NCBI GenBank assembly: GCA_030628225.1
Contig: DAOVRJ010000088.1
Location: forward strand, 1-9,125
From: Candidatus Zixiibacteriota bacterium
GTDB lineage: Bacteria; SM23-81
Length of the DNA stretch: 9,125 bases
Direction: 5' to 3'
Shown piece by piece: positions 3,984 through 9,125 of this stretch (positions are counted from its first letter, which is position 1; each line of letters starts with the position of its first letter). The translations under genes and the position numbers were made by a program. The notes below the pieces were generated by a model. That model searched no databases, was not told the origin of the DNA, and saw nothing but the letters and a program-made list of their open reading frames with translations.

Positions 3984-4994
3984 TCAGAACTCCAGTCCCA
4001 TGGAGAACCGGTGTACGTATTCCAGACGGCCCCAATTGGAACAGGCGTAATCGATCTTGACGGTGGTGGCCACAGTCAGGGGGTAGTGTATCCCGCCGCC
4101 GAAGGTCAACCCCTGCTCACTGTCCTCCCTGCCCAGGGCTTTGTAACCGCCGCGCAGGGCGATGAGATCGTTCCACATCACTTCGCTGCCCAGGTTGATG
4201 GCCTCGTTGTTGTCGTTGGGATGCATGGCGTCCAAGGCCACGGTCCAGCGCAGAGGTTCGCCGCTTAGCAGATCCATGGCAACGCCCACGCGGAAATTCA
4301 GGGGTAGATCCCAGGCGTGCGTATCTAGATAAGCTCCTACAGCTTCATTGTTGCCGGGGAGTCCAGGGTCGACGTCGTGAAAGACCGCGCTGTCCTTGCC
4401 TTCCATCTTCATTTTACTGCCGAAATTGGCCATGGACATGCCGATGCGCATCCCTTTGAAGCGGGTGATGTACAGGGTTCCCACGTCAAAGGCGAAGCTG
4501 GAGGAGTTCATGTGCCAGATGTTCTGCTGGATATATTTGACGTTGAAGCCAAAGGAAAAACGGTCCGTCAAACTACGGGCATAGCTGGCGGCCAGGGCGA
4601 AGTCGCTGGCCCCCATGATCTCCCCGGTGCCCTCGGGCTTATCAACGGTGGTGACTTCCCACTCCCCGTAATCCAAGGCGGTCAGGGAAGCTCCCAGGGT
4701 GTTGTTCCCGATATGCACTACCACTCCCCCGAAGTTGAAGTTCGTGCTGGCCAGCCATTTGGCGTGCATCAGTAGAATCTCATTGCCAGTGAGAGAAACC
4801 AGCCCGGCCGGGTTCCAGAAAAGGGCTGCGGCATCGTCGGCTATGGCCACGTATGCTCCCCCCAGAGCCGCAGCCCGGCATCCCACCCCGATCTTCAGAA
4901 ACTGGGCCGCGCTGGTGCCCACCTTGGTGGTGGCCATAGCGGGCCCGACGGTCACCAAGGTTATCAGGAGAGCGAACAGGACTACTTTTCGCAT
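3984..4994 (-). CDS. PorV/PorQ-family outer-membrane beta-barrel protein
   Basis: This 336-residue protein belongs to the PorV/PorQ family, FadL-like 14-strand barrels of the outer membrane. In Bacteroidota, PorV binds the C-terminal signal of T9SS cargo and shuttles it from the translocon to the attachment machinery; that role here is by analogy. Residues 1-21 are a signal peptide (likely cleavage after AMA). The family hallmark follows at residues 30-65: AAQFLKIGVGCRAAALGG, then AYVAIADDAAALFWNPAGL. The rest is alternating amphipathic strands, and the protein ends HRFSMGLEF, with the terminal Phe expected of a barrel. The ATG is preceded by GGAGG at 7 nt spacing, which supports the start. 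The gene begins 21 bp after the stop of the 1020-residue secreted protein, so the two are very probably co-transcribed, placing a candidate shuttle beside a candidate cargo. PorV and PorQ cannot be told apart by eye, so no gene symbol is given. Confidence 0.87.
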   Translation of the reverse strand: MRKVVLFALLITLVTVGPAMATTKVGTSAAQFLKIGVGCRAAALGGAYVAIADDAAALFWNPAGLVSLTGNEILLMHAKWLASTNFNFGGVVVHIGNNTLGASLTALDYGEWEVTTVDKPEGTGEIMGASDFALAASYARSLTDRFSFGFNVKYIQQNIWHMNSSSFAFDVGTLYITRFKGMRIGMSMANFGSKMKMEGKDSAVFHDVDPGLPGNNEAVGAYLDTHAWDLPLNFRVGVAMDLLSGEPLRWTVALDAMHPNDNNEAINLGSEVMWNDLIALRGGYKALGREDSEQGLTFGGGIHYPLTVATTVKIDYACSNWGRLEYVHRFSMGLEF

Positions 4995-5015
4995 GGGTTA
5001 ACCTCCGCTGAGATC

Positions 5016-8000
5016 CTATTTAATGATGGCGAATTTGCCGATTTTTTCTCCGATGGACGATTCGATGTGGTAGATGTAGATCCCATAGGCGATTTCCATA
5101 TCGTCCTTGGACAGTAGATTCCACGATTCGGAGCCGTCGTAGAGATCGTCATCGTGCTCAATGGTCTGCACCAGGTCCCCGTAGATGGTGTAGATGCGAA
5201 TGGTACACCGGCGGGGTAGGTGGATGAAGTCGATCCGGCGCTCTCCCCGGCCGTGGCCGGGGGGGATGTCCGGTGGCAGGGTCTCCCATTTGGCCGCGCT
5301 CACGTAGGGGTTAGGCACAACTTTGATCAGATCCAGCTGGTTTTTAGTGGCCCCGGCTGTGCTGGGTACCTGGGTGCTGAAGGTGATCTGGTCGCTGGCC
5401 GTCAGGAGTTCGGCGATCTCTATGAAGGCCACATCCCCGGCCTGGGGATCGATCCTGGTTACGATGGTATCAACGGGTTCGACCACAAAGCTGTCCACAG
5501 TGACCCAGACGGTGTCCATCACCACCGAGTCGGGTGGGGCGGTGAAGGTGACCAGCCAGGTGCCCTTGGGCGTGCTGTTTTCGTATAGTACCGGCAGGAC
5601 GTCGTCTCCGCTGGTCACATAAGAGTCTGGGTCGTTGCTCTGGTCTTTGTCGTAGAAGATGAAGTCGTTCTGCATTTCCTCGCTGACATTCCACACCTGG
5701 AACTTGACCGGCTGCGGGCTGACGATCTTGGATGTGTCCGCTATCGAGTCGAAGAAGCGGATCTCGTAGTCGGCGGGATAGCGAATCCCGCCCTGAGGGA
5801 AGAGTTGAGCGGTGATCTCGTAGTTGCAGTTCCCAACGGTCCAGGCCAGCAGGCTATCGATGACGTCCACGGTGTCCACGTCATCGATGGTCAGATCCAA
5901 CCCGTCGAAGATGACCTCTTGTCCCTCCAGGCCGGTGTTGTTCTCCTCCACCAACTCTCCCAAATCCTCATCCAGGATGGAGAATGTAGTCCAGGCAGAG
6001 GAGGTGTCGTCGAAGGTGATCCGGTACTGGTGGCCGGTGATTTCCTGCGGGTCCAGTACCTCTATGGAGATGGCCGCGTCGGCATTGCCCTGATGGGTCA
6101 GGTTGACGATCTCCGGGGCCACATAGCCCAGGGGACGGGCGTTGGGGACCAGGGCGACGATGTTCGGCTCGGTGACCTGATCCGCATCTTTGATGGCCTT
6201 GCCGCACTCTACCGGGGACACGAACTGCTCCTGGCTGCCCTTATCGTAGGAACAGACGGCGTAGTAGTAGCGGATGCCGTTGGTCACATTCCGGTCCGTC
6301 CAGGAGTGCACCAGGCCTGTGTCGTCGCCCATGTAAAAATGAATGCCGGAGCTGTTTGGATCTGTGGCCGGCCGGCCCTGGTTATCCAGGGGGTGCGAGC
6401 CGGTGATGCCATCGACCAGATCGAACTGGGCGATGGGCTCCCAGTAGACCTGCACGCCGCGATTGTCGGTGATGGGATTACCCCAGGTGGCCCCCCGGTC
6501 GGTGCTGCGGTAGATGGTATAGCCTTCGAAGTCAAGCCCCAACAAGGGATCAACCGATTTCTCGGCGATCTCGTTCCAGTAAAGGGTCACCTGCCCATCC
6601 CCGGCCACGCCTGTCACGCTGGGCGCAAAAGGTGCCTTGGTGCTCTGGTAGCCTGAGCTGTAGATGCTCTGAGCCACCTCGGCGTTATTCCACAGATCCA
6701 CGCTGTCGGCTCCCACGATAATGGCGATGGACATGGGTTGGGCTTCTCCCGGCTCCAGAGAGAAGTATCCCGAGCCGAAGAAGAAGACGTTATCGCCGAT
6801 GGGAAAGGTCTCCGAGAAGCTGCCCGGGGTCAGGGCGATCCAGCCGGTTGAGTCGTTACCGGCATTGAAGGGGCTGTTGTAGTCGTAGCTCATCATGCTG
6901 GTCATACCCAGCTGGTCGCTCTCGTCGATGTCCCGGATCTCGAAGTCCGGCTCCCCCACAGTGGGCAGGCCGTCCCCTTCGCCCTCGTCCTCGGTGTCGG
7001 GGATGCCGTCAGCTCCCACGTCGTCGGAGAGCTGGTCCAGGTCGTTGGGATCCTGCTGGGCCTGTTCGTCGGTGGCTTGCCAGTCGCCATCGTCGTCGAT
7101 GCCGTTGTACTGCGACTCGTCGATCATCCCGTCGCCGTCGTTGTCGATGCCGTCATGATCGTTGAAGGGGGTCTCCAGGTATTTGAAGCCCACCCAGCCC
7201 ACGTCGCCGGGGAAGTTGGGGCTGCTGTTGTCGGTGTCCCAACTGTAGACGAAATTGTTCTCCCTGTCGAAGTCAACTCCGTCGTCGGCGAAGTCCGGAT
7301 AGCCGCCCACGTCCAGGTCGACGAAATAGCCGGCCACCACCTTGTCCAGGCGTTTATAGCCGATATTCTTGATCTCGTAGACGAAGAAGATGATGTCCTC
7401 GGCGATAGCCGCCGCCCACTGATAGCCCCGGGAGCTGATCTCGATGCCCAGCCCCTGCAGGGTGTCTGTCTCCGGATAGTAGTCGTAGATGCCGGCGGCA
7501 TTGCCCACGCCGTTAGAGGCCTGGTCGCTCAGCACGAAGTAGCTCTCCTGGTCGGCGGTGATCACCCCGGGCCCGAACTGGCCGGGCCACTCGGTCCACT
7601 CCGCTGGCCAGGTAGAGGGATCGTCGCTCATGGCCGGGCTCTCGTTGGGCAGGGGGGCGAAGTAGCCGGGGAGGGGCTCCAGGTCGTCGTCCCCGCCGTC
7701 CAGGATGCCCTCGATGGTGCAGTGGATGGTGTCCGGCTCCCCGGTGGTCGTGTCGACCCTGATGAACTCGCCGGCTATTATCGGTCCGAACTCGTAGCCG
7801 TACTCGTGGCCGCTGTAAGCGGGCCACTCAATGCGCGGGGGATAGCGGCCGATGGAGCCAAAGTTGGTGAACCGGGTCCTGACCCTGTTTCCGGCGTGAA
7901 TGCCCGCTTTTCGATCGGGGTTGACCAGGGACTTGGCCAGGACTTCCCTGGCCTGTTGGTCACTCATATGCTTCTGGCCCGGTTGGCCGGCCCAGCTTTG

Positions 8001-8078
8001 CTCTGGAGCCAGAAGTCGGAGGCTGGCCAGGGCGACAAGCAGCAGGATAAACAGGGTCAATCCGCTGGTTTTTTTCAT
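5016..8078 (-). CDS. Large secreted protein with Asp/Gly calcium-binding-like repeats, FN3-like region and C-terminal FlgD-like/T9SS sorting domain
   Basis: This 1020-residue protein is probably exported by Sec and then carried to the cell surface by a type IX-like route. Residues 1-30 form a signal peptide (hydrophobic core LTLFILLLVALASL, likely cleavage after SWA). Residues about 60-460 are a large module with many aromatic and acidic residues that I cannot assign. Within it, residues 307-338 hold two Asp-rich units (DGIDNDGDGMIDE and NGIDDDGDWQATDE), with a further acidic stretch to about 383; these resemble EF-hand/thrombospondin-3-like calcium-binding loops. A fibronectin-III-like region lies near residues 483-615 (APSVTGVAGDGQVTLYWNEI, then YTIYRSTDRG). 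Residues about 918-1020 form the C-terminal domain: linker KVVPNPYVSAAKWE, strands RIDFIHLP and CTIRIYTIYGDLVQTIEHD, and end GEKIGKFAIIK, as in FlgD-Ig/T9SS type A sorting domains. The ATG has an upstream GAGGG about 7 nt away. No catalytic motif was seen, so a structural, adhesive or ligand-capture role is inference. It lies between the receptor gene and a PorV-like gene 21 bp downstream. Confidence 0.88.
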   Translation of the reverse strand: MKKTSGLTLFILLLVALASLRLLAPEQSWAGQPGQKHMSDQQAREVLAKSLVNPDRKAGIHAGNRVRTRFTNFGSIGRYPPRIEWPAYSGHEYGYEFGPIIAGEFIRVDTTTGEPDTIHCTIEGILDGGDDDLEPLPGYFAPLPNESPAMSDDPSTWPAEWTEWPGQFGPGVITADQESYFVLSDQASNGVGNAAGIYDYYPETDTLQGLGIEISSRGYQWAAAIAEDIIFFVYEIKNIGYKRLDKVVAGYFVDLDVGGYPDFADDGVDFDRENNFVYSWDTDNSSPNFPGDVGWVGFKYLETPFNDHDGIDNDGDGMIDESQYNGIDDDGDWQATDEQAQQDPNDLDQLSDDVGADGIPDTEDEGEGDGLPTVGEPDFEIRDIDESDQLGMTSMMSYDYNSPFNAGNDSTGWIALTPGSFSETFPIGDNVFFFGSGYFSLEPGEAQPMSIAIIVGADSVDLWNNAEVAQSIYSSGYQSTKAPFAPSVTGVAGDGQVTLYWNEIAEKSVDPLLGLDFEGYTIYRSTDRGATWGNPITDNRGVQVYWEPIAQFDLVDGITGSHPLDNQGRPATDPNSSGIHFYMGDDTGLVHSWTDRNVTNGIRYYYAVCSYDKGSQEQFVSPVECGKAIKDADQVTEPNIVALVPNARPLGYVAPEIVNLTHQGNADAAISIEVLDPQEITGHQYRITFDDTSSAWTTFSILDEDLGELVEENNTGLEGQEVIFDGLDLTIDDVDTVDVIDSLLAWTVGNCNYEITAQLFPQGGIRYPADYEIRFFDSIADTSKIVSPQPVKFQVWNVSEEMQNDFIFYDKDQSNDPDSYVTSGDDVLPVLYENSTPKGTWLVTFTAPPDSVVMDTVWVTVDSFVVEPVDTIVTRIDPQAGDVAFIEIAELLTASDQITFSTQVPSTAGATKNQLDLIKVVPNPYVSAAKWETLPPDIPPGHGRGERRIDFIHLPRRCTIRIYTIYGDLVQTIEHDDDLYDGSESWNLLSKDDMEIAYGIYIYHIESSIGEKIGKFAIIK

Positions 8079-8132
8079 CCTCTTTCCCTCGTTTTAATAG
8101 TTTAATGACTTAAAAAGCTCTTTCCGCATAGT

Positions 8133-9125
8133 TTAGAATTCCAGCTCCAGTCCCACCAGGACCTTCCGCGGCTCACTGTAGAAGTGAGGCCTGTTGATGT
8201 AGTCGAGGCGGAGCTCCTCTCCTCCTTCCCCGATGAGATTTTCATAGGGGTTTAGATTGTAGGTGGCCCGCCCGGTGCTGCTCCACACCTGGTTCTCGTT
8301 ATTTGTGTCGAAGATATTGTAGACACGCAAGAAGATTCCAGTACGCAGATCCCGGCCGTAAACGTTTCTCCAGATGAGATCCTTGCGAGCATTAAGATCG
8401 AAGTTCAGGGTGGCTGGCTTGCGCTCGCTGTTCTCCTCCCCGGTCCGGTACCCTTTGGAGTCCAATGGGGTATAGGGGAGGCCGCTGCCGTACTTGCCGA
8501 TGAGCCCCAGGCCCCAGTTGTCAGGCTGGGACAGAGTCAGCGAAAGACTCAAAGTATGGGTCTGGTCCCAGTCCAGGGGCACCACCTTCTTTTCCGGCTG
8601 GACCCTCAGGTTGGCCGACCAGTCGGCGTGCTGGGCGTCGGGGTTGGAGGCGTTGCCCTCGGCCACCTGGTAGGTGTAGTTGATGTTAAAACCTAACAGG
8701 TTCCGGCGCCGCTTGGCCAGCTCCAGGGTGACTCCTTTGACGTTTCCATAATCCAGATTGACGTATTGAAAATAGCTCTCCGCGGCGGTGAGCTTGAACC
8801 TCTTGGTGCCGATGAGGTTGGTGATGTCCTTGTAGAATCCGGTGACGTTCAGGGCCAGGTCTTCGACCATCTCCTGCCGGAACCCAACCTCGTAAATGAC
8901 CGTTTTCTGAGGCTCCAGCTCGCCGGCCACTATCTGTTTATCGCGGAGCTCAAATTCCGAGTTGGTATAGATGTAATTGTAGGTGGGAATCTGGAAGAAG
9001 TGACCGTAAGAGAAGTAGAGCATTCCTTTATCGGAGATGGGATAGGCCATTCCCAGACGGGGGCTCCACTGGCTATGAGTGCTTACCGGCACCGTTTTAT
9101 CCTCTTCGGGGAAGTCGTCCCAGGC
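8133..9125 (-). CDS. TonB-dependent receptor, C-terminal part (5' end beyond window)
   Basis: This is the C-terminal 330 residues of an outer-membrane TonB-dependent receptor, a family that imports large or scarce nutrients using TonB-transmitted energy. The frame stays open to the right edge, so the gene begins outside the window; a GTG codon at 9092 is internal, because in-frame coding (AWDDFPEEDKT) continues upstream of it. Visible family features are the barrel segment SPRLGMAYPISDKGMLYFSY followed by GHFFQIPTYNYIYTN, the strand YEVGFRQEMVEDLALNVTGF followed by YKDITNLIG, many alternating aromatic/polar strands, and a C-terminal Phe (LVGLELEF) typical of outer-membrane barrels. The plug domain, TonB box and any carboxypeptidase-regulatory-like N-terminal domain would lie upstream and cannot be checked. 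The stop is TAA. It is followed after 54 bp by the 1020-residue secreted protein in the same direction, probably in the same operon. The substrate cannot be inferred; a SusC-type role is possible, but no SusD-like gene is present. Confidence 0.9.
   Translation of the reverse strand, partial: AWDDFPEEDKTVPVSTHSQWSPRLGMAYPISDKGMLYFSYGHFFQIPTYNYIYTNSEFELRDKQIVAGELEPQKTVIYEVGFRQEMVEDLALNVTGFYKDITNLIGTKRFKLTAAESYFQYVNLDYGNVKGVTLELAKRRRNLLGFNINYTYQVAEGNASNPDAQHADWSANLRVQPEKKVVPLDWDQTHTLSLSLTLSQPDNWGLGLIGKYGSGLPYTPLDSKGYRTGEENSERKPATLNFDLNARKDLIWRNVYGRDLRTGIFLRVYNIFDTNNENQVWSSTGRATYNLNPYENLIGEGGEELRLDYINRPHFYSEPRKVLVGLELEF

Follow-up and report, generated by a model that had tools for sequence, protein, structure and literature searches.

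A recurrent trio of TonB-dependent receptor, T9SS-type surface protein, and PorV-family barrel as a possible counterpart of SusC/SusD

The locus described here raises the question of whether a PorV-like outer-membrane barrel can belong to one secreted protein and one TonB-dependent receptor. A reading of the sequence alone had proposed that these three genes form a dedicated export-and-uptake unit. The stretch of DNA under study (the window) spans contig C20 (9125 bp) from end to end; the contig belongs to a draft genome of 2.34 Mb. In transcription order, its minus strand encodes a TonB-dependent receptor (8133–9125), a 1020-residue exported surface protein with a signal peptide and a T9SS-type C-terminal domain (CTD) (P0002; 5016–8078), and a 336-residue outer-membrane barrel of the PorV/PorQ family, also with a signal peptide (P0001; 3984–4994). 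The gaps between them, 54 bp (8079–8132) and 21 bp (4995–5015), as well as the single direction of the trio, are as first reported. No terminator-like site was found on the coding strand of either gap (also minus), counts being in line with those in shuffled sequences.

The rest of the window holds two adjacent and similar RDD-family membrane proteins (PF06271; 2633–3181 and 3337–3825), probably a tandem duplication, a probable lipoprotein with CGEDNPTEP after its signal (339–1187), and a 390-residue protein (1383–2555). Neither of the latter two had a match in Pfam or NCBIfam.

Structural features of the three proteins

The contig ends within the receptor gene, of which only the C-terminal barrel remains (330 residues; PF00593, 91 bits). 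A full-length orthologue of 886 residues (L085:13700–16360) has CarbopepD_reg_2, Plug, and barrel domains. This succession of carboxypeptidase-regulatory domain, plug, and barrel is the domain order of SusC-like receptors; it is found in the orthologue, the window gene itself being truncated.

The AlphaFold model of P0002 (pLDDT 76) has an N-terminal β-supersandwich domain (residues 54–480; 6639–7919, minus strand). This domain matched glucodextranase 1ug9 and glucoamylase 1lf6 (VIA Z = 20.5, RMSD = 2.7–2.9 Å, approximately 240 residues) and GH94 phosphorylases (Z = 18–19). Glucoamylases and GH94 phosphorylases have the β-supersandwich as their non-catalytic domain. We rejected the possibility that P0002 is itself a GH94/GH15-type enzyme, since the modeled domain consists only of the supersandwich and short helices, with no (α/α)6 catalytic barrel. 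Because this helical barrel is missing from the model, a binding rather than a catalytic role is likely for P0002; the predicted supersandwich fold by itself is not proof of sugar binding. The domain carries an acidic insertion, DHDGIDNDGDGMIDE... (residues 315–387; 6918–7136, minus strand), which, judging from its sequence and a pLDDT below 50, is probably disordered or Ca-binding.

The supersandwich is followed by a fibronectin-III-like region (residues ~484–640; 6159–6629, minus strand), recognized from conserved columns, modeled β-strands, and Foldseek rows to fibronectin. Apart from the CTD, this is the most conserved stretch of P0002, with the motif FEGYxIYRST. The N-terminal domain differs from trio to trio and is divergent or unrecognizable in some of the shorter ones. 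PorZ was among the first Foldseek rows for P0002, but the alignment was poor (TM ~0.1) and was given no weight. P0002 has no lipobox, a lipobox-like motif was absent from all 36 trio surface proteins, and P0002 had no match to the SusD model PF07980. SusD_RagB matches were lacking in seven of nine genomes, this one among them; there was one in G057 and two in G077.

P0001 scored 224.8 bits against the PorV/PorQ family model NF033709 (cut-off 90) and 41.3 bits against PF19572 (cut-off 27). Its scores against the models for PorV proper (NF033710, 78.6 bits) and PorQ (NF033711, 106.8 bits) were below the equivalog cut-offs of 250 and 220, respectively. The top match of its AlphaFold model (pLDDT 90) was PorV of F. 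johnsoniae (Z = 34.7, 281 residues, 3.2 Å); the PorV structures 8gl6 and 6h3i gave Z = 34, and FadL-type barrels came next at 31 or less. The NF033709 score and PorV as the closest fold bear out the PorV/PorQ-like barrel of the sequence-only reading. All 36 trio PorVs group in a single branch (50 rows, SH-aLRT 100) of a tree built from 93 PorV-family proteins, and the PorU-linked PorVs lie outside this branch. Two PorV-family proteins of approximately 750 residues (G002:C55:24296–26470 and G003:C146:13075–15249) have a long insertion that splits the match after the first 41 positions.

PorV is related to FadL, and CymD, FadL, and TodX (Z = 30–31) score just under PorV (34–35) on the P0001 model, as would suit a FadL-type channel that passes some hydrophobic substrate or product, with P0002 exported via the shared PorV. 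We consider this quite improbable: PorV is the best match both by fold and by family model, the barrel accompanies a special class of CTD and not just any receptor-linked protein, and the neighbors of trios include sugar genes, not lipid or aromatic genes. Our preferred assignment of P0001 is that of a proposed dedicated carrier and anchor.

The C-terminal domain and the T9SS machinery

P0002 had no match, up to an E value of 0.1, to TIGR04183, TIGR04131, Por_Secre_tail, or FlgD_ig. Its score against CHU_C (14.4 bits) was below the cut-off of 27, and the test for a type B CTD was thus negative. C20 is also missing from the genome's 64 matches to the type A model (TIGR04183, cut-off 23 bits). 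The CTD (residues 915–1020; 5019–5336, minus strand) was recognized through alignment with relatives (VVPNPY ... GKFAIIK) and through Ig-like strands at the C terminus. It has the two general type A features, that is, Ig-like strands, as modeled, and a conserved lysine near the C terminus, in the tail GKFAIIK, where relatives mostly have K or R. The T9SS-type CTD of the sequence-only reading is real, but the FlgD part of that assignment found no FlgD_ig match, and the domain is not an ordinary type A CTD. We describe it as noncanonical on the basis of the alignment, a class test, and bimodal genome-wide scores.

The CTDs of trios start with VVPNPY and end with GKF(A)IIK, and other CTDs nearby end with KKMxLLK. 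These tail patterns were spotted by eye and post hoc, and inspection was therefore replaced by leave-one-genome-out profiles. This test assigned 35 of 35 trio CTDs and 75 of 87 other CTDs correctly; the 12 misassigned ones came mostly from variant-order cassettes, tandem copies, or contig ends. Scores against the trio-CTD profile in three whole genomes were bimodal, with 25 matches above 55 bits and the remainder below 50. Twenty-two of the 25 strong matches directly adjoin a PorV gene (one counted via a tandem copy), two occur within cassettes of variant order or where a contig ends, and the last (G061 2970889) consists of a receptor and a CTD protein followed by a run of Ns, with no PorV. 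A few trio-type CTDs have no adjacent PorV, G061 2970889 and L098 being examples.

The two CTD classes also part company in relation to the barrel. Sixty-one CTDs in this genome pass TIGR04183; all nine CTDs encoded immediately upstream of a PorV gene fail it. A P0002-type N-terminal domain occurs on four proteins with type A-like CTDs (L054, in this genome, L085:11957–13654, L106, and L107). These four lack an immediately downstream PorV gene, while among PorV-adjacent proteins with this N-terminal domain every one of the 33 bears the trio CTD. Hence, PorV adjacency tracks the CTD class and not the binding domain. The L085 protein, from the closest relative, has 565 residues and joins a type A-like CTD (KKMLLFR) to a binding domain that shares 83% identity with the one in P0002. 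Its gene sits between the receptor and cargo genes, which means that both CTD classes occur on the same domain within one operon.

A search for the translocon, suggested as a check together with the original proposal, found SprA in this genome (632 bits over the frame) and in six of six genomes. The PorU sortase was found on contig C166 (743 bits) and at full length in all seven genomes tested, so that the case of a genome with no T9SS translocon genes did not arise. The PorM model TIGR03517 was silent in seven genomes and equally in all controls. The core T9SS locus (L036:5448–14643, contig C166 of G000) encodes PorU, two tandem PorV proteins, and then a 1023-residue CTD protein, and the PorU-linked PorVs at this site are likely the shared core.

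The presence of full-length PorU in every genome tested and the Ig-like, type A kind of CTD in P0002 would both agree with an ordinary fate for this protein, in which the adjacent barrel exports it, PorU cleaves the CTD, the protein ends up attached to LPS or released, and the receptor is merely a co-regulated neighbor. This course of events seems unlikely to us, as the trio CTD is consistently unlike the type A CTDs with which it shares a genome, and as the operon of the closest relative carries the 83%-identical binding domain with a type A-like CTD, as though the two forms were meant for two destinations.

Recurrence and co-divergence of the cassette

PorV-family genes are multicopy, with 22 matches in this genome and 9 to 24 in six other genomes. 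In the single-contig genome G061, a CTD gene lies directly upstream, on the same strand, of 11 of the 14 PorV-family genes (binomial ~3e-13, given a background of 4%), more than expected by chance; a count of PorV-like genes and their CTD neighbors had been suggested as a check. Mapping of the surroundings in the searched genomes yielded 63 CTD–PorV pairs and 36 full trios in 12 genomes. A receptor-less pairing, in which a 470- to 500-residue CTD protein is followed by two tandem PorV-family genes, was seen at L038 (G000), L140 (G001), L133 (G077), and L154 (G061).

Named genomes were scanned with aligned relatives of P0002 as the query, which gave at least 577 confirmed stretches. The 80 best of these belong to KSB1, Calditrichota, Neomarinimicrobiota, Ignavibacteria, Melioribacteraceae, Stygiobacter, Rhodothermales, Gemmatimonadetes, Stahlbacteria, WOR-3, Delongbacteria, and MAGs labeled Bacteroidetes. 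The sequence-only reading had drawn on Bacteroidota for comparison; the nearest named relative among the matches listed comes from KSB1 (a MAG) rather than from Bacteroidota. Where the contig left room, a TonB-dependent receptor was found upstream in 70 of 71 of these best loci and a PorV gene next downstream in 61 of 69. Of the 62 loci with room on both sides, 57 kept the whole trio. As the named loci were picked via the surface protein, these figures show the fidelity of the other two genes and not the frequency of the trio. Variant orders exist, namely receptor–PorV with the CTD gene further upstream (L037, L139, L130, and L160) and receptor–PorV–CTD (L090). An orphan or chance arrangement is rejected by this recurrence among the best 80 and by the binomial result for G061; the single orphan locus that would have spoken against the original proposal was not what we found, the trio being present in many phyla.

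For 31 trios, all six distance correlations were between 0.70 and 0.79, above all 2000 within-genome partner shuffles. The partial correlations were lower, 0.19 for PorV–CTD and, at the maximum, 0.40 for PorV–receptor. The cassette is inherited and diverges as a unit, with no PorV–CTD excess, and this co-divergence may be attributable to linkage alone. The use of the mirror tree as evidence for contact is weakened by the low partial correlations. The suggestion that trees would reveal co-evolution was borne out insofar as receptor, cargo, and PorV distances agree beyond shuffles and the trio PorVs form a clade, but a signal specific to PorV and CTD is absent.

Co-divergence of the whole cassette with partial correlations of 0.19 to 0.40 is also what one might see if functionally separate outer-membrane genes had been joined by co-regulation or joint transfer, with no complex being formed. 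We regard this as improbable, considering that order and spacing are conserved across many phyla (57 of 62 loci, among the best 80 of at least 577), that the variant orders still hold all three parts, and that the CTD class follows PorV adjacency. A dedicated unit is well supported at the gene level. The export-and-uptake unit first proposed is thereby partly supported, by the multicopy PorV family, the recurrence, the presence of SprA and PorU, and distances that agree beyond shuffles, but not by any PorV–CTD excess.

Ligand, mechanism, and relation to known systems

Sugar genes near the trio were found neither in the window nor in its closest relative. Among 84 trio neighbors in the searched genomes, there were five LacI regulators, five PpiC-type chaperones, four ABC-type permeases, two amylases, two GH130 proteins, two solute-binding proteins, one GH94 protein, and one GDE_C protein. 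The 80 neighbors of named trios included GH3 (eight), solute-binding proteins (seven), LacI (six), permeases (five), GH94 (four), NamZ (two), GH2 (two), and amylase (two). Both tallies are descriptions and not enrichment tests. Riboswitches were dropped as a clue to the ligand, none being found at gathering score in the window and seven related loci.

Two further features were seen beside trios. Genes for PpiC-type peptidyl-prolyl isomerases, some with two rotamase domains, directly adjoin trios at L089, L093, and L095; these could possibly be dedicated periplasmic chaperones of the cargo or the receptor. A gene for an exo-β-N-acetylmuramidase (NamZ) lies near a trio, on the opposite strand, at L211:11620–12870, which hints that muropeptides may be taken up by way of some trios.

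On balance, we lean toward a SusCD-like uptake unit in which a T9SS-delivered surface binding protein is held on a dedicated PorV-like anchor. P0002 would cross the inner membrane through its Sec signal and be recognized by the SprA translocon by its CTD. It would leave SprA bound to its own PorV-family barrel and not to the shared, PorU-linked PorV. The CTD would remain uncleaved and be kept on the adjacent barrel, as is reported of PorZ/PorQ and PorU/PorV. Retained beside the receptor as its proposed ligand-binding partner, P0002 may present the ligand through its supersandwich domain, and the SusC-like receptor would import this ligand, which is presumably oligosaccharide-like.

This arrangement resembles SusC/SusD, and also RagA/RagB and BtuB/BtuG, in that a receptor whose orthologue shows the SusC-like order of domains is paired with a surface protein, and in that the neighboring genes in relatives are those of polysaccharide utilization loci. 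However, whereas the SusCD partner is a surface lipoprotein, the trio surface protein is not SusD and lacks a lipobox; P0002 combines a supersandwich with a fibronectin-III-like region and a CTD of the T9SS type, and it is accompanied by a barrel of the PorV family.

Type B CTD cargo has dedicated PorP/SprF carriers encoded downstream (PMC12618676), which are reported to anchor such cargo too (PMC9143113). The trios share with these pairs a carrier gene directly downstream of the cargo gene and many carrier copies per genome. Their carrier, however, belongs to the PorV and not the PorP/SprF family, and their CTD is Ig-like (NPY...GKFAIIK) and scores below the type B models. PorZ on PorQ and PorU on PorV keep their CTDs uncleaved, and cognate PorV-like barrels have been proposed as CTD protectors (PMC10202324). 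The trio, likewise a PorV/PorQ-family barrel with a CTD protein that is proposed to stay uncleaved, fits this idea, for a new class; unlike those single machinery parts, the trio pair is repeated and tied to a receptor and nutrient genes. With the SprA–PorV–type A CTD translocon (PMC10994853), the trio has in common the PorV fold and the general CTD type. Type A cargo is described as using one common PorV (PMC12618676), whereas the trio has a separate PorV clade and a separate CTD class.

In the open literature (subscription work and preprints being outside that search), we found no paper on a trio of receptor, CTD protein, and PorV, and PorV and T9SS both go unmentioned in the paper on the C. 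abyssi genome. Repeated across many little-studied phyla, the trio appears to be a so far undescribed equivalent of SusC/SusD, the pair that serves sugar uptake. It departs from the current account, in which dedicated carriers are reserved for type B cargo (PMC12618676), by having many copies per genome of PorVs from one clade together with CTDs of a corresponding class. Such copies occur next to receptors, and in relatives also next to sugar genes, across lineages that range from KSB1 to Ignavibacteria and Rhodothermales. More tentatively, phyla of the FCB group without SusD might have their own solution for glycan capture, that is, a T9SS-delivered receptor lid on a PorV-family anchor of its own, together with a CTD sub-code in which GKFAIIK marks retained and KKMxLLK released proteins. 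If true, this would explain how SusD-less bacteria give their TonB receptors surface partners, would provide a rule for recognizing retained T9SS cargo by its sequence, and would make many unannotated genes probable nutrient-capture proteins.
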